A stretch of 51,705 nt of DNA from Bacteroidota bacterium (GTDB taxonomy: Bacteria; Bacteroidota; Bacteroidia; Flavobacteriales_D; Crocinitomicaceae). Position 1 is the stretch's first letter. Each line of letters begins with the position of its first letter. Below are positions 40,635 to 48,902 of this stretch, one piece after another. The position numbers were made by a program, and so were the translations under genes. Where the stretch lies: positions 1 through 51,705 of the forward strand of contig CANCJF010000004.1 of NCBI GenBank assembly GCA_947378245.1. Direction: 5' to 3'. The notes under the pieces are model-generated. The model was not told the DNA's origin, made no database searches, and was given only the letters and a program-made list of their open reading frames with translations.

Positions 40635-41453
40635 ATGATTACAAACGTAGATTTAATTGATGTTAAAGAATTAACAAGTATAGTTCAAGAGAAGTATAAT
40701 GAAGATTTTTCTGAATTTGCTACTACTGCGTATCGACGAAGAGTTGAAAAAGCTGGGAATGATTTGCGAATTCCTACAATGAGTGTTTTGTTGGAAAAAA
40801 TCAAAACCGATCCAGCGACTTTTCAAAAGTTTAAAAAACAATTAATTATCCCTACCACAGAGTTTTTTAGAGACCCTTCTTTTTGGAGAAAATTAAGAGA
40901 AGAAATAACAAAAAAACATAAAGCAACTGCTTTTAGAGTTTGGGTTGCTGGTTGCTCTTCAGGAGAAGAATTGGTTTCTCTTGCTATTTTATTGAAAGAA
41001 TTAGATATTTACGATAATAGTAAAATACTCGCGACTGAAATAACCGACCAAGTTTTTGCGGATATTAAAATGGGGAATTTTGAGGCTAGAAGTATCGAAA
41101 CAGGAGAAAGTAACTATGAGCGTTTTGAAGGTAAAAAGAAGTTTGCTGATTACCTTAAAACTTCAAATGGTATTACAACTATTGATACGTCATTGCTTTC
41201 TAATGTCACTTTCCAAGCTTCATCAGTCGATCTATCGGAAGTTACAGGAAAATTTGATTTAATCCTTTGCCGTAACGTTTTCATCTATTGCAATCTTAAT
41301 TTGCAAGATAAAATGATTAAAAGCTTTGAACAGCGTTTATTCCCATCTGGATTATTCGCTATCGGAGTGAAAGAATCCTTAAATTCTTCTCGTTACAAAA
41401 ATTCTTTTTTAGTGGTTTCGGAAGAAGAAAATATTTTCAAAAGCAAAATGTAA
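40635..41453 (+). CDS. CheR-type protein-glutamate O-methyltransferase
   Basis: TEFFRDPSFWRKLREE, RVWVAGCSSGEELVSLAILLKEL, FDLILCRNVFIYCNLNLQDKMIKSF. Confidence 0.9.
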   Translation: MITNVDLIDVKELTSIVQEKYNEDFSEFATTAYRRRVEKAGNDLRIPTMSVLLEKIKTDPATFQKFKKQLIIPTTEFFRDPSFWRKLREEITKKHKATAFRVWVAGCSSGEELVSLAILLKELDIYDNSKILATEITDQVFADIKMGNFEARSIETGESNYERFEGKKKFADYLKTSNGITTIDTSLLSNVTFQASSVDLSEVTGKFDLILCRNVFIYCNLNLQDKMIKSFEQRLFPSGLFAIGVKESLNSSRYKNSFLVVSEEENIFKSKM

Positions 41454-41460
41454 TTCAGTT

Positions 41461-41501
41461 AATAATTATCAATTGATAATTTACAATTGATAATTGATAA
41501 A
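41461..41501. repeat. Second copy of the CAATTGATAATT-type repeat
   Basis: aataattatcaattgataatttacaattgataattgataa. Confidence 0.6.
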
Positions 41502-41565
41502 CTGATATTTGTCATATTTTATGCTATTCGCCTAATCTATCTTTGATTATGTAAAGTATAGCGCT

Positions 41566-43773
41566 ATGTTTAAAAATATCAACACTAAATTAAATCGTAA
41601 GTTCTCTGTTGTTTTTGGAGTGATAACGATTACCGTTTCTACCTCTTATTTGCTTAATTTTTGGTTTAATAGTACGTTAAAAAGCGATGCTGTTGTAACG
41701 GAATTAGCTGCTCAAAATAAGATATCTGCTCAAAAAATGGAGATGCAATTAACAAAGTTGTACTATGCAAACGAGGAAGAGAGTATTGAAACATTAAAAA
41801 ATGAAATTCAGGAGACTTCCATTTCTTTTCGTAAGAATTTAGCAGTCATAAAATTAGGTGGTGATTATTACGATGAAGAAGAAAAAGTAGTTGTCAAACC
41901 AGCGATAGAAACTACCTTGAAAAATGAAATTTCAGAAATTGAGTCTGTTTTTGGTGGTTTAATGCAAAAAGTAAACATCATCATAGATCAATCTAAATAT
42001 GTTCGATTAAAAGCTTCTGATACACTTAAAACATCGAAGGTTCGATTGATTAATCCTGTTTTTGATGAAACTTTTACGAAGTTGAATATTTATTTAAAAA
42101 ATAATGATTTAATTGCTGACAATCAGGATTTACTTAACATTTTAAGTAAAAAATCAAAAGAAGGTAAAAAGTTTTTCGTGGAATTAATGATTTTCTTGTT
42201 GATTACAAATGTGTCTTTGATATTCTTAACTTATTTATTCTTAAGAAGAAATTTAAAACCAATAGAAAGTATTACAGATTATGTAACTCGTTTGTCGGAT
42301 GGAGAATTACCAAATGATATCCACACGAAGTCAAAAGATGAAATCAATGAGATTGCATTGGCAGTAAATAAGTTGGGGTCAAATATCAATGCAGCTAGTT
42401 CATTTGCGGCAAGTATTGGAAGTGGAAATTTGGAAACAGACATTGTCGTTTTTAACAATCACGGAAAATTGTCTGAATCCTTGCGTTCAATGCGAGATAG
42501 TTTGGTTAGTGTAGCCGATGAAGAAGCAAAAAGAAATTGGGCTACAGAGGGATTTGCAAAATTTGTAGACATCATCCGATCTACAGATAATATCGAAGAG
42601 TTTTATAATAATATTTTAGGGAATTTAATTCGTTATTTAAAAGTAAATCAGGGCTACCTGTACATTGTCAATGATCAAAATACGGTGGAGCCATTTATGG
42701 AAGTTCAGGCAGTGTACGCGTATGGGAAGAAGAAATACTTAGAGGACAAAAAGACCGCTCATTATAAAGAGGGATTAATAGGTCAAGCATGGTTTGATAA
42801 AGAAGCTTTATATTTTACGGAAATTCCAGATAATTATGTCTATATAACTTCTGGTGTTGGTGAATCGTTGCCAAAAGCTTTATTAATTGTTCCACTCGTA
42901 ATTAATGAAGTAGTGGTAGGTGCTATCGAGATCGCTTCCTTTAAAGAACTACACCAATACGAAATTGATTTTGTATTTAAATTAGGAGAAACAATTGCTG
43001 GCGCAATACAGAATGTAAAAGTAAGCGAACGAACACGAAAATTGTTAACTGAATCCCAAGAACATACGGAACAAATGCGCGCTCAAGAGGAAGAGATTCG
43101 TCAAAACATGGAGGAGATGCAAGCGACCCAAGAAGAAATGGAACGTGCACAACGTGCGATGAAACAAGCGTTGGATTCAGCTAAAATTAAAGAACAAGAA
43201 GCAATCGCTATTCAAGAAGATTTTGAACACCAAAAAAACAGAATTCAAGCGGAATTTGACGTGCAATTAGCAATCATCAATGAAACAGCAATTGTTTCTA
43301 AAACAGATTTGCGAGGATATATTACGTATGTGAATGATATGTTTTGCGAAGTTGCTCAATATACACGGGAGGAATTAATTGGTCAAAATCACAATATTGT
43401 TCGTCACCCAGATATGCCTGCAGCTGCTTTTGAAGATGTTTGGAGAACAATTAGTTCTGGAAAAATTTGGAAAGGTCAAGTAAAGAACAAGAAGAAAGAC
43501 GGCTCTTATTATTGGGTTCAAGCAACAATCTCTCCAATTATCGGTGAAAACGGTAAACCTGTTGAATATATGGCGGTACGTTATTTAATTACGGATATGA
43601 AAGACCAAGAAGTTTCAAATATCCAACTTATCGAAACAATGCGTGCACAAGAAGAAGAAATTAAACAAAATTTAGAGGAAATTCAAACTACGACTGAAAA
43701 ATTGGAAGCAGTAATCAAAGACTATAAAGAAAGAGAAGAAAAATTACTACAAGAATTAAAAAACAAGGGGTAG
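41566..43773 (+). CDS. Membrane HAMP-GAF-coiled coil-PAS protein with no kinase, cyclase or MCP output domain
   Basis: TM segment VELMIFLLITNVSLIFLTYLFL then HAMP; GAF; Aer-like PAS (YTREELIGQNHNIVRHPDMPAAAFEDVWRTISSGKIWKGQVKNKKKDGSYYWVQATI); C-terminal coil only. Confidence 0.82.
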   Translation: MFKNINTKLNRKFSVVFGVITITVSTSYLLNFWFNSTLKSDAVVTELAAQNKISAQKMEMQLTKLYYANEEESIETLKNEIQETSISFRKNLAVIKLGGDYYDEEEKVVVKPAIETTLKNEISEIESVFGGLMQKVNIIIDQSKYVRLKASDTLKTSKVRLINPVFDETFTKLNIYLKNNDLIADNQDLLNILSKKSKEGKKFFVELMIFLLITNVSLIFLTYLFLRRNLKPIESITDYVTRLSDGELPNDIHTKSKDEINEIALAVNKLGSNINAASSFAASIGSGNLETDIVVFNNHGKLSESLRSMRDSLVSVADEEAKRNWATEGFAKFVDIIRSTDNIEEFYNNILGNLIRYLKVNQGYLYIVNDQNTVEPFMEVQAVYAYGKKKYLEDKKTAHYKEGLIGQAWFDKEALYFTEIPDNYVYITSGVGESLPKALLIVPLVINEVVVGAIEIASFKELHQYEIDFVFKLGETIAGAIQNVKVSERTRKLLTESQEHTEQMRAQEEEIRQNMEEMQATQEEMERAQRAMKQALDSAKIKEQEAIAIQEDFEHQKNRIQAEFDVQLAIINETAIVSKTDLRGYITYVNDMFCEVAQYTREELIGQNHNIVRHPDMPAAAFEDVWRTISSGKIWKGQVKNKKKDGSYYWVQATISPIIGENGKPVEYMAVRYLITDMKDQEVSNIQLIETMRAQEEEIKQNLEEIQTTTEKLEAVIKDYKEREEKLLQELKNKG

Positions 43774-44084: not shown

Positions 44085-45497
44085 TTATATCTTCACACTC
44101 AACGTAAAATAATAGGCATTCGTTGAATGGTTAAATTCTAATTTCCCTCCCAAATATTCTACTAATTTCTCACTGATCGGAAGACCTAATCCAAAGGTGT
44201 CCACTCCGGAGAGGGATGGGTTTGTGGAGGTATAAGTCGGATGGGTTATTGCTGAATGCTCTTTTTGGATGCTTTTCACTTCAAAATACAGAATACTATT
44301 GTTTATTTGACTACGCATACTCGATACAGAAATTAGTATTTTACTATCTTTTGCAATTAATTTTAAGGTACTACTCAGTAAATTATTAAGTATAATTGAA
44401 ATTTTTACTGCGTCAATGTTGATTTCAGCTGGTAAATCTTTCTCTACCTCGAAATCTAAAAATACATTTTTTGATATGGCATGAAAATAATGCGAAGCCA
44501 AAACTTCTTGGATTAAATCGACCAAGTTTGTCGTATTCACAGTTGTTGACTCTTGGTATTCAATTAATCTTTCATCATTTAACGCTTCATCGATTAAGAT
44601 ATTGATACTTTGACATTGATGTTTTAAGGTGTTTAATTCAATGCGTTGTTCTCCTGTTAAAGTAGAAATTACTTCTGGTGAGGAAATAGATGAAATGATT
44701 TTATATAAAGGAAATATGATTTCAGAAGAAAAATGGTTGATGAACGTGTTTTTTAAATCTAAATTTCGCTCGATAATTTTCTTTTCTTTTTTGATGATTT
44801 CATTTTCTATTTGTGAACTGATATCGGTAATGAAAATAAGAACAGAATGGGTTGAAGCATCTACCTCTTTTAATTTTGTAAGTTGAACCAATCCACGCTT
44901 TACACTATTTATATCAAAAACATGTTCAAATTGTAAATGTTGTGCTTCAGATAAGTAAAAATTATCGATTTTGGCACTTAGTTCTATATCAAAAATACGA
45001 TAAGAAGCTAAAGTGTCAATCGAATCATCGGGTAACTCAAAAAAACGATTAAAGGAAGAATTGTATGTCTCGATAGTACGTTTTAATGGCTCAAACACAC
45101 AAAATGAAATCGAAGTAGTTTGAAATATATCCCTAAACAATAGATTTTTAGTGAATTGTTTAGTTTCGTTTTCAAAAATGGTATGAATACCCAAAGAAAT
45201 AGCATCTAAATCATCTTCTATTTCTTCATTTACTAAGGTAGAAGCAACGGATTGTCCGTCAATTCTATGGGTGACTTGTTTTAGTATAAATTGTTGTTTT
45301 TGTAGCGTCTTTAAATGAGCTTCATACAAAAGATTTGCTTCTTTTTCTAATTCAATAATCACGTCTTCCTCGGAAGTTAGTGTTGGACAGGAAGAATTGG
45401 ACATACGTTTTAATAAAGTTAAGACGTTTGTCAATTTTGGATTTCCTAAGTCATAGGAAACGAATTGTTCCGTAGTGAATTTATTAGTAAGCTTCAT
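44085..45497 (-). CDS. PAS-type sensor histidine kinase homolog with degenerate phosphoacceptor site
   Basis: PAS-like region; HisKA-like FINHFSSEIIFPLYKIISSISS with Ser where His is expected; HATPase N-box ILNNLLSSTLKL and GLGLPISEKLVEYLGGKLEF. Confidence 0.72.
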   Translation of the reverse strand: MKLTNKFTTEQFVSYDLGNPKLTNVLTLLKRMSNSSCPTLTSEEDVIIELEKEANLLYEAHLKTLQKQQFILKQVTHRIDGQSVASTLVNEEIEDDLDAISLGIHTIFENETKQFTKNLLFRDIFQTTSISFCVFEPLKRTIETYNSSFNRFFELPDDSIDTLASYRIFDIELSAKIDNFYLSEAQHLQFEHVFDINSVKRGLVQLTKLKEVDASTHSVLIFITDISSQIENEIIKKEKKIIERNLDLKNTFINHFSSEIIFPLYKIISSISSPEVISTLTGEQRIELNTLKHQCQSINILIDEALNDERLIEYQESTTVNTTNLVDLIQEVLASHYFHAISKNVFLDFEVEKDLPAEINIDAVKISIILNNLLSSTLKLIAKDSKILISVSSMRSQINNSILYFEVKSIQKEHSAITHPTYTSTNPSLSGVDTFGLGLPISEKLVEYLGGKLEFNHSTNAYYFTLSVKI

Positions 45498-45626: not shown

Positions 45627-46322
45627 ATGGAATTTGCCTTAGTTTGTAACGAAAAAGGAATCGTGCAAGAGATCACTTTAGACACCTCTTCCCAATTAAC
45701 TATTGGCAACTCTTTATTTCCCTTCGTGGATTCATTTAGCATCCCGAAAATTCTTACTTTTTATCAAGAAATTGAGAATAAAGGAATTGCACTTAACTGG
45801 GAAATAAATTTTTGTTTTGAAGACATGCTTATAGCACTAGTAGTGTCTGGTATAAAAAGAAATAAAGAAATTCAAATTTTTGGATATTCTGCACACGACA
45901 ACAATCAAAAAATCATCGATGAATTAAGTGCAATTAATAATTCACAGAGTTTATTACTTCGTTCATCCATCAAAGAAAACATAAAGCACGCTGTACAGAG
46001 AGATCCAGAAAGTGATAAGGCATTTATTTTAAGCTTGCAAAATGAAAATAGATTATTAAAAAACCAAGTGATTTCTTCGAGTCGTATCTTTGAAAAACAA
46101 TTAAACGAACAAGAGCATAAAATCAAATTATTACTTAAAAAGGATAACGAATTAAAGGAAGAACTTTTGATTATATACGATGAAATTAAATGTTCCACAG
46201 AATTAATAATTAAGGATTACCGACAAGCGGTATTTACGAAGCAAGGAGAATTAGAAGAAATACAATCCCAACTTTTTGAGTTGAATTTACTAATCGAAAA
46301 GTGGGGTATAATTAAGGAATAA
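45627..46322 (+). CDS. PAS-like / coiled-coil signalling protein, no output domain seen
   Basis: PAS-like N-terminus; IIDELSAINNSQSLLLRSSIKE linker; long C-terminal heptad region. Confidence 0.5.
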   Translation: MEFALVCNEKGIVQEITLDTSSQLTIGNSLFPFVDSFSIPKILTFYQEIENKGIALNWEINFCFEDMLIALVVSGIKRNKEIQIFGYSAHDNNQKIIDELSAINNSQSLLLRSSIKENIKHAVQRDPESDKAFILSLQNENRLLKNQVISSSRIFEKQLNEQEHKIKLLLKKDNELKEELLIIYDEIKCSTELIIKDYRQAVFTKQGELEEIQSQLFELNLLIEKWGIIKE

Positions 46323-46323
46323 C

Positions 46324-47592
46324 ATGCCGAATCAATTAAATCAATTATTAAACCATAAAATAAAAACAGAATATTCTGTGAAGAATAATTGGGATTTAAC
46401 ATTAGAACTAAATCTCTTACTTACTTTTTTCTCACATCAGTCCAAGCAATTGCCAGTATTTATTTATTGGTTGGAGAATTATTTTGAAGCAGTAAATTTA
46501 CCTTTTTCTCTGCTTGAAAATTGTTTGTTAGAAATTGAACCAAAACATTTTTTGGTTCATAGCGACTTAAAAGAGAAGCTAAAAGTAAATAACAAAATAG
46601 AAGAAATAGGGCTTTGTACCGACTTGCACATTGAACTTTTTCAAACCATTGAGAAACATTCTAAGCCTGAATACAGAAGTTATATTTATAATGACGCGGA
46701 AAAACATTTAGAATTTTTAAAACAATCGATCGAAACGGATAGTATTATTTTATTTACGGAATACATCGCTTGGGCAAAAACAATGTTAAACGCTTTGCAC
46801 ATTGACACAAGTACCTTAATTCGCTTTTTGGTCACTTTACGTACTGTTTTTCATGTAAATAATCAGAAAAAAGAAGTAGCGTTTTTGGATCGTGGTATCC
46901 AAATGTTATTAGATGGAAATGTCGTTTCAGCAACTTCTGAAATCGCGTTTACCATTACTGAAGAATCCAAAAAATACTTAGAGCTTCTCCTTCTAAAAGA
47001 ACGAAATTTGGCTAAGAATTACATACTTGAGTTAGCGGATGGAGGAATGGATATTCGTGAAATATTCCTTGATGTTTTTCAAGCGACCCAATATGAATTA
47101 GGTAGATTGTGGGAATTGAATCGTATTACCATTGCACAAGAACACTACTGTACAGCTGCAACGCAAACCTTCATGGCAATGCTTACCGCACGTATTGTTC
47201 CAGAAAAATTAATTGGTAAAAAAGTGATTGCTACCTGTGTAGGTACTGAACAACATGAATTAGGGATACGAATTGTAAATGATTTCCTAGAAATGGAAGG
47301 TTGGGATACGTATTACTTGGGTGCAAATGCGCCGATGGAAGCCATTATCCTTGCCATTAAAGATAACCAACCAGATTTATTAGCACTATCGGTTACATTG
47401 ACACCACATGTTAAAAATGTGATTGAAATCATTCAAAAAGTGAAAAATATTTTCCCAACCATTAAAATATTAGTTGGTGGTTATCCTTTTTTAAGAGATA
47501 ATTCATTAGCAGAAAAAATTGGAGCAGATGGCGTCGCTTTAGATGCAAAACAAGCGCCTATAATTGCCTTAAAATTAGTGCAGAATTCTTAA
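46324..47592 (+). CDS. Cobalamin-binding (B12-binding_2 + B12-binding) protein, photoreceptor-like
   Basis: RLWELNRITIAQEH matches W-x9-EH; TEQHELG matches the ExHxxG variant of the B12 ligand motif; ILVGGYPF. Confidence 0.85.
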   Translation: MPNQLNQLLNHKIKTEYSVKNNWDLTLELNLLLTFFSHQSKQLPVFIYWLENYFEAVNLPFSLLENCLLEIEPKHFLVHSDLKEKLKVNNKIEEIGLCTDLHIELFQTIEKHSKPEYRSYIYNDAEKHLEFLKQSIETDSIILFTEYIAWAKTMLNALHIDTSTLIRFLVTLRTVFHVNNQKKEVAFLDRGIQMLLDGNVVSATSEIAFTITEESKKYLELLLLKERNLAKNYILELADGGMDIREIFLDVFQATQYELGRLWELNRITIAQEHYCTAATQTFMAMLTARIVPEKLIGKKVIATCVGTEQHELGIRIVNDFLEMEGWDTYYLGANAPMEAIILAIKDNQPDLLALSVTLTPHVKNVIEIIQKVKNIFPTIKILVGGYPFLRDNSLAEKIGADGVALDAKQAPIIALKLVQNS

Positions 47593-47610: not shown

Positions 47611-48312
47611 GTGAAAAAAGTATTTGATTTTGTGCTAGACTCAATCTTCGAGCCATCCGAGGTCGCATTCCAGTGGAGAGAAGAAAAAAGAGAAGAGCAA
47701 TACCGTAACTACACCCTTGTTCAAGAAAAAAAGGTAATAGTTGTCACAAGTAGAGGTTGGGTAAGTAAAGATGGAAATGCATGCATGCGCTTCGCGCGCT
47801 TTCAAAACGAGCAAATCGACATTACAACGCTTATCATTTTCCCTACAAACGACACATCACTTTTTCCAATTTTTGTGGTAGAACTCGTGTTGGTGATGGA
47901 TAAAATTCATCGTTGTATTGTAGATGTGGAGCCCGTCACTTTGCTCAGCAAACCATTAATAGATACCTATTTTTCTTCTTTATACACGAAAAACCAAGAC
48001 CTTTTAGAACAATTAAATGACCGACCTGACTGGTTTACCGACATTCAATCGCCTTACGCTATTTACGCGACCTGTAATGCTTCGGAGGTGCATAAAGTGG
48101 AGACAATTGTAGATTCGTATTTCTCTATGTTTATGCTAGAATATATAAACGGTCAAAAATTACCAGTTTTTGAACAGGTCAAGGATCATGTTTCTGTTGC
48201 TGAATATAAAAAACACCATGTTGCACATTCTCCAGCAAAATCAATTATCAAGGGCGAAAATGAATCTTGGTTGAATCAATTTTTAGAACATAACCATTTC
48301 AAAATTCTATGA
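47611..48312 (+). CDS. Putative ferredoxin-dependent bilin reductase (HY2/PcyA superfamily), GTG start
   Basis: FARFQNEQIDITTLIIFPTNDTSLFPIFVVELVLVMDKIHRCIVDVEPV; QSPYAIYA; C-terminal EYKKHHVAHSPAKSIIKGENESWLNQFLEHNHF; 4-bp overlap with heme oxygenase. Confidence 0.65.
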   Translation: MKKVFDFVLDSIFEPSEVAFQWREEKREEQYRNYTLVQEKKVIVVTSRGWVSKDGNACMRFARFQNEQIDITTLIIFPTNDTSLFPIFVVELVLVMDKIHRCIVDVEPVTLLSKPLIDTYFSSLYTKNQDLLEQLNDRPDWFTDIQSPYAIYATCNASEVHKVETIVDSYFSMFMLEYINGQKLPVFEQVKDHVSVAEYKKHHVAHSPAKSIIKGENESWLNQFLEHNHFKIL

Positions 48313-48902
48313 AGTTATCTGAAAAGTTAAAAATAGCCACACAAAATGCACACAAAGAAATTGAGCAGTCTCATTACTTTAAACGACTTCTATCTCCCGA
48401 TTTAACAGTCGAGGAATATGTGCATATTTTGTGTTTATGGAAGACATTCCTTACCCCAATCGAAGCATCTTGGCAAAAACATGCGGAATCCAATTTGATT
48501 TTTTCAACCATAAATCAAAGAGGTAAAACCTACCGTTTACAATTGGACATAGATAATTTAGGAAAATTTTACCATCTTGCGAATTCGAGTGGGGCTGGCA
48601 AAAAGTTGCTTGCAAATGACTTCGATGTACAGAATCCATTGAGTTTAATTTCCTCTTTATACGTTATCGAAGGTTCCACTATGGGAGCAATGCATATTGT
48701 AAAACAGTTAATGAAGGTTGATTTTTGTTCGGAGAACACGACCCATTTTTACACACATTATGGAGAGGAAACGATTGCGATGTGGCAAACGTGTAAAATG
48801 GAATTGGACCATTGGGGAGATGAAAACCCAAATCTTCACAATCAGGTGTGTGATGGAGCGGTTCAATGTTTTCAATCGCTTGGAAATCATTTTAATGGTT
48901 AG
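48309..48902 (+). CDS. Biliverdin-producing heme oxygenase (BphO/HO-like)
   Basis: LKIATQNAHKEIEQSHYFKRLL (proximal His), SSLYVIEGSTMGAMHIVKQL, FYTHYGEETIAMWQTCKMELD. Confidence 0.82.
   Translation: MKLSEKLKIATQNAHKEIEQSHYFKRLLSPDLTVEEYVHILCLWKTFLTPIEASWQKHAESNLIFSTINQRGKTYRLQLDIDNLGKFYHLANSSGAGKKLLANDFDVQNPLSLISSLYVIEGSTMGAMHIVKQLMKVDFCSENTTHFYTHYGEETIAMWQTCKMELDHWGDENPNLHNQVCDGAVQCFQSLGNHFNG

Follow-up and report, generated by a model that had tools for sequence, protein, structure and literature searches.

Photocobilins, of which SasPcob and AbDPcob (8J2W, 8J2X, 8J2Y) were characterised in 2024 (PMC10979010), join a B12-binding part to a bilin-type globin. In SasPcob, Asp270 is the key biliverdin contact and Trp296 also contacts the pigment, while AbDPcob binds biliverdin poorly despite its globin, with an occupancy of about 20% (PMC10979010), so that a globin fold alone is no proof of bilin occupancy. 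The same publication mentions neither heme oxygenase nor an operon, which leaves the bilin source of photocobilins open. Photoglobins, and photoglobin-B12 fusion proteins, go back to Schneider et al. 2022 (as cited in PMC10151467), the year in which photoglobins were named. In the pre-2 class of pre-PcyA gene clusters, a ferredoxin-dependent bilin reductase (FDBR) is found together with a separate BBAG-2 globin, a separate B12-binding protein and sometimes a heme oxygenase (HO) (PMC10151467). Our literature search found no description of an operon that holds HO and FDBR genes together with a fused photocobilin; Schneider et al. 2022 may contain part of such an arrangement.

Here we describe a locus from a Bacteroidota bacterium of the Crocinitomicaceae (assembly GCA_947378245.1), within a 51,705-nucleotide stretch of contig CANCJF010000004.1 that we call the window. 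One gene in it is predicted from its sequence to encode a photocobilin whose globin is N-terminal; proteins of this kind have been known since 2022-2024. What sets the locus apart is a predicted dedicated supply of bilin to this protein, the bilin possibly being reduced rather than biliverdin itself.

The photocobilin gene and its domains

The photocobilin gene (46324..47592, + strand) starts with ATG and encodes a protein of 422 aa that consists of an N-terminal extension, a photoglobin domain, a B12-binding helical cap and a Rossmann domain; an AlphaFold model of the whole protein had a mean pLDDT of 89.6. Pfam matches above cut-off cover B12-binding_2 (residues 228-287) and B12-binding (residues 300-409). 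A sequence-only reading of this DNA had pointed to a W-x9-EH motif, followed by a histidine, at given codons, and the residues are where it had placed them: W263 at 47110-47112 and E273-H274 at 47140-47145, which together form the predicted adenosyl-pocket signature W263-x9-E273-H274 (47110..47145, + strand), and H311 (47254..47256, + strand), the predicted lower axial cobalamin ligand, which aligns with His108 of SasPcob. All four are invariant across an alignment of 45 sequences from many phyla (Bacteroidota, Chloroflexota, Desulfobacterota, Bacillota, Acidobacteriota and archaeal MAGs), so the spacing of the signature is no chance match. Directly after the signature Trp the protein has Glu where CarH has His132, and, extrapolating from PMC11796333, a CarH-like bis-His light state is therefore not expected.

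When compared with solved structures, the protein matched the photocobilins 8J2W, 8J2X and 8J2Y best (1.7e-21 to 3.5e-15), followed by corrinoid proteins (4e-12) and then CarH (about 0.01). In a domain tree in which many forks are open, its B12 domain groups with photoglobin-B12 proteins, apart from methionine synthase and 1y80; CarH-like MerR proteins from this genus make up a clade of their own. A placement with methyltransferase corrinoid proteins, which the earlier reading had named as the outcome that would count against it, was not seen. That reading had also stated that the protein, unlike CarH, has no helix-turn-helix (HTH), and a Pfam scan of the photocobilin indeed found no HTH family; the N-terminus is predicted to adopt a helical globin fold instead.

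This last point corrects the description of the N-terminus as a region of unknown function, since most of it is a photoglobin domain by both profile and fold searches (residues 85-222; 46576..46989, + strand), with a predicted bilin pocket. A profile of the globin (alignment residues 80-222) searched against PDB sequences retrieved 8J2X and 8J2W at the top (6e-9), with subunits of allophycocyanin and phycocyanin next. The comparison with globin and phycobiliprotein folds that had been proposed as a check gave the same order: residues 1-222, folded separately, retrieved 8J2W and 8J2X (probability 1.00) and then phycobilisome proteins, with weak E-values of at least 0.03. When the aligned sequences were scanned singly, 31 of the 45 matched Pfam Phycobilisome, while the globin of the window protein alone had no Pfam match. 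Within the domain, D124 (46693..46695, + strand) aligns with the biliverdin-binding Asp270 of SasPcob and is Asp in 42/45 sequences, and W150 (46771..46773, + strand) aligns with Trp296 and is Trp in all 45. By contrast, SasPcob His137, which contacts a bilin propionate, is not conserved, its counterpart in the window protein being A340. In a comparison with the protein of a congener (genome G1188, locus L148), the bilin-pocket helices (residues 99-160) were the most highly conserved segment at 74%; the Rossmann domain reached 66%, the helical cap 63% and the N-terminal extension 36%.

The extension itself (residues 1-84; 46324..46575, + strand) is predicted to be helical, and hints in its sequence raise the possibility, which is only suggestive, that it is a truncated second copy of the photoglobin. 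It scored 9.0 bits against the photoglobin profile, where the maximum of 1000 shuffles was 7.9 bits, with an hhalign probability of 63%. Typical relatives, of about 350 aa, lack the extension, and one of similar length occurs in a Saprospiraceae protein (L005) and in the congener. Against a second globin, the Saprospiraceae extension does not score and D24 is Asn in the congener.

The operon and its bilin enzymes

The photocobilin gene is the second of four genes in a same-strand operon that runs from a PAS/coiled-coil gene through the photocobilin and FDBR genes to the HO gene, with junctions of 1 nt, 18 nt and -4 nt. In the congener the order PAS-photocobilin-FDBR-HO is kept, as is a divergent kinase-like gene upstream; identities between the two species are 36% for the PAS protein, 56% for the photocobilin, 34% for the FDBR and 31% for the HO, the last of which is read in two frames in the congener, reflecting a frameshift in a MAG that is 74% complete. 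A nearly identical operon was found at one further locus (L004). Among 299 genomes drawn from the order, no other strong match turned up, in keeping with a patchy distribution. The window contains no match to a cobalamin riboswitch or to any other Rfam family. Gene content and order, domain homology, the conserved residues and the conservation of the operon in the congener are direct observations. Two side observations concern the same region. The HO gene differs from its L004 counterpart at 33/591 bases, 18 of them within 48700-48799, against 6/1266 for the photocobilin gene in genomes that are otherwise near-identical; the divergence at 48700-48899 perhaps reflects local recombination. Upstream of the operon (40635-43773) lie genes for a CheR methyltransferase and a HAMP-GAF-PAS protein, the latter with many relatives in the genus, and a CheR gene precedes the operon in the congener too.

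The first of the two enzymes is a divergent FDBR (47611..48312, + strand; GTG start, 233 aa). It exceeds the Pfam Fe_bilin_red gathering score (PF05996, 39.8 bits; cut-off 31), matches NCBIfam PRK02816 at 3.7e-9, well under the curated cut-off of that model, and aligns with a profile of PcyA and myxococcal FDBRs at an hhalign probability of 94.6%. However, it lacks the catalytic Asp105/His88 pair of PcyA, having T73 at the position of His88 and E91 at that of Asp105 (numbering from a 4EOE/2G18 alignment), and both substitutions are kept in the congener, whose FDBR has no Pfam match below 0.01. In a tree in which long branches meet, and which includes no named pre-2 reference, the window FDBR is an orphan long branch with at most 18% identity to any other FDBR that it includes. 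Its divergence from the congener's enzyme amounts to a dN of about 0.70 and a dS of about 2.2, the dS being near saturation, and on these sequence comparisons the FDBR is retained in the operon through deep divergence. The second enzyme is an HO (48309..48902, + strand; 197 aa; PF01126, 52.9 bits, cut-off 23); its start and the FDBR stop share 4 bases.

At four unrelated loci (L062, L041, L048 and L019), too, photocobilin genes have an HO gene that passes the Pfam cut-off within about 250 bases, and at another (L083) such an HO gene is about 1.1 kb away from a B12 relative without a globin. FDBR matches, in turn, numbered three among 50 photocobilin-bearing genomes, two of them above cut-off (the L004 operon and an unlinked gene in the genome that carries L018). 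From this, a dedicated HO appears to be a theme that recurs, and the FDBR of the operon a local addition. A phylum-wide PF05996 search gave 0/399 matches, but since it failed to pick up even the FDBR of the window it is not taken as evidence of rarity, and phage and plasmid searches with the window FDBR or a Polyangia FDBR returned nothing close. Two candidates were rejected: the one other match (G823, 5e-4) of a class-wide FDBR protein search falls in the C-terminal part of a protein that resembles an ion channel, and a B12 match beside an FDBR (L133), considered as a pre-2 partner, belongs to a small B12 protein of the mutase type. One gene of a Lake Pavin Bacteroidetes MAG (L091:7817-8737) encodes a bilin reductase that carries a PCP_red domain (proto-chlorophyllide reductase 57 kD family) at its C-terminus; it is unlinked to the photocobilin-Kai cluster (L018) of the same genome. 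A MAG of the myxobacterial class carries two globins, a protein that by eye is V4R-like, a bilin reductase and a match to heme oxygenase, all in one cluster (L134:1823-6636), which resembles clusters of the pre-1/pre-3 type.

As for the supply and use of the two pigments elsewhere in the genome, which is 92.4% complete, a cobalamin adenosyltransferase, the enzyme that forms adenosylcobalamin (AdoCbl), is encoded. A search for PHY domains found no match, and a phytochrome is therefore not the obvious customer for the bilin, though a GAF-only bilin protein might be one.

Candidate output partners

The first gene of the operon (45627..46322, + strand) encodes a 231-aa protein with a PAS-like domain and a coiled coil but no kinase. 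By itself it has no Pfam match; in phmmer searches it matched 46 PAS genes that adjoin photocobilin genes outside the lineage, and it is homologous to the sensor part of the PAS-histidine kinases found in that position elsewhere. In relatives the next gene mostly encodes such a kinase, an H-box being present in 43 of these 46 PAS neighbours. The divergently transcribed gene upstream (44085..45497, - strand) encodes a histidine-kinase-like protein without the H-box histidine: the H-box position reads FSSEIIFPL in the window and IDKEMMLPL in the congener, so that the phospho-acceptor His is lost in both. Parts of the ATPase domain are kept in this protein and in its congener counterpart (L148:6697-8094), which makes it a probable pseudokinase. 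Downstream of the operon, a gene for a PAS-HisKA_3-HATPase sensor kinase runs to the contig end (49086..51704, + strand), and in L004 two response-regulator genes then follow. We regard this as a candidate downstream kinase, with a relay that might run from the photocobilin through the PAS protein to the PAS-HisKA_3 kinase.

At loci from Bacteroidota and Chloroflexota MAGs, genes for a photocobilin and a PAS-histidine kinase come immediately before those for a response regulator, KaiB and KaiC (L018:3-4833, L076:5848-11111, L021:5899-10804 and L007:3007-7938). A partial Kai locus (L075:718-3876), on a contig that ends after KaiB, carries a globin-less B12 protein, and the regulator at L018 has a sub-threshold match to the KaiA C-terminus (18.1 vs 22.2 bits). 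This suggests that Kai-linked photocobilins may be a light input to non-cyanobacterial Kai systems; our literature search found no paper joining KaiC and B12-binding as a light input.

Mechanism, alternatives and comparison with known systems

We consider it quite probable that the operon specifies a dual-chromophore light sensor, which would use AdoCbl together with a bilin whose supply is most probably encoded in cis. Chromophore binding, photochemistry, dimer switching, the identity of the bilin and the output path are all what we infer from sequence, as follows. The sensor would be soluble and probably dimeric, with AdoCbl held between the helical cap and the Rossmann domain and a non-covalent bilin in the N-terminal photoglobin domain. 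Green light absorbed by the cobalamin, or red light absorbed by the bilin, would lead to cleavage of the Co-C bond; the adenosyl group held by W263, E273 and H274 would then be released, and the dimer interface would change. The HO (48309-48902) would make biliverdin, which the FDBR (47611-48312) may reduce before use. The co-transcribed PAS/coiled-coil protein would receive the signal and hand it on to a nearby kinase, in place of a route through an HTH. The sequence-only reading had arrived at a B12 photoreceptor acting through protein-protein contacts; as a prediction this holds up well on the sequence evidence, but it was incomplete, having missed the bilin-type globin and the operonic synthesis of bilin.

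The bilin itself may be of either kind. On one version of the dual-chromophore sensor, which we advance tentatively, the second chromophore would be a reduced bilin and not biliverdin, made by the dedicated, atypical FDBR of the operon and tuning the red-light response; this version might further include a truncated second globin in the N-terminal extension and, in place of the usual PAS-histidine kinase, a PAS relay that lacks a kinase. On the other, which differs in the bilin bound and has somewhat less than an even chance, biliverdin would be used as in SasPcob, and the FDBR would only clear excess biliverdin or serve an unrelated acceptor. SasPcob does bind biliverdin (PMC10979010), BBAG-2 globins do so despite the FDBR in their cluster (PMC10151467), and most photocobilin-bearing genomes have no FDBR match (3/50 do, 2 above cut-off). 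Against this version stands the persistence of the FDBR in the operon through deep divergence, which does not tell which bilin is bound.

Could the protein instead sense green light through AdoCbl only? The globin would then be a structural element for dimerization or partner docking, with little or no bilin, and HO and FDBR would serve heme-iron recovery or another pathway. The low occupancy of AbDPcob, which keeps its globin (PMC10979010), the non-conservation of SasPcob His137 and the catalytically atypical FDBR all speak for such a sensor. Yet the window protein has Asp at the Asp270 position, where AbDPcob has His (PMC10979010), and the bilin pocket is the most conserved region between the congeners. 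Moreover, HO and FDBR remain in the operon in both species, HO recurs next to photocobilins at unrelated loci, and a bilin reductase would be unneeded for heme-iron recovery; we therefore judge this explanation unlikely. More improbable by far is a corrinoid methyl-carrier of a methyltransferase system in which the signature is coincidental. The best NCBIfam matches of the Rossmann domain are indeed corrinoid proteins of the MtgC/MtbC type, but these fall far under the curated cut-offs (54.6 vs 370 bits), and photocobilins match better (1.7e-21 vs 4e-12). The W/E/H/H set is invariant, the B12 domain is separate from MetH and 1y80 in the tree, and no such methyltransferase gene was identified in the operon or in those of its flanking genes that were examined.

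If the protein is a dual-chromophore sensor, chromophore-making enzymes sit in the sensor's own operon, in a genome without a detected phytochrome PHY domain, which suggests that the photocobilin family can have its own pigment supply. Should the FDBR be active, photocobilins would be tunable by bilin reduction, as cyanobacteriochromes and phycobiliproteins are, and the operon would tie a fused sensor to the BBAG-2/FDBR/B12 gene clusters known from other bacteria. It is also a possible ready-made source of red- and green-light optogenetic parts.

The window protein shares the AdoCbl signature W-x9-EH and the ligand His with SasPcob and AbDPcob, and with SasPcob a bilin-type globin with Asp and Trp pocket residues. 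Like both, it has a residue other than His directly after the signature Trp and no evident covalent Cys attachment, C98 not being kept in the congener. It differs from SasPcob in that its globin is N-terminal rather than C-terminal, and from both in sharing only about 26-28% identity over the B12 part, in lacking a fused output domain, and in having 84 extra N-terminal residues and an HO/FDBR operon. The domain fusion is that of the photoglobin-B12 proteins, the 44 aligned relatives likewise having an N-terminal globin followed by B12 domains, but the PAS partner here has no kinase, whereas theirs carry an H-box in 43 of 46 cases. With CarH and AerR the protein has in common the B12 signature and a predicted adenosyl-dependent oligomer switch, while it has no DNA-binding domain and does have a globin. 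The FDBR is homologous at profile level to PcyA and other FDBRs in its central domain, where it has the FPIFxxE/D strand and the Asp that follows; it departs from PcyA at T73 and E91 and, by alignment, in having no Glu at the Glu76 position, and since it is without His88 and has Glu for Asp105 as well, production of PCB is not expected. Finally, the locus holds the same four ingredients as the pre-2 clusters, namely an FDBR, a bilin globin, a B12-binding domain and an HO, but here globin and B12 domain are a single protein, the lineage is Bacteroidota and the FDBR is an orphan long branch.
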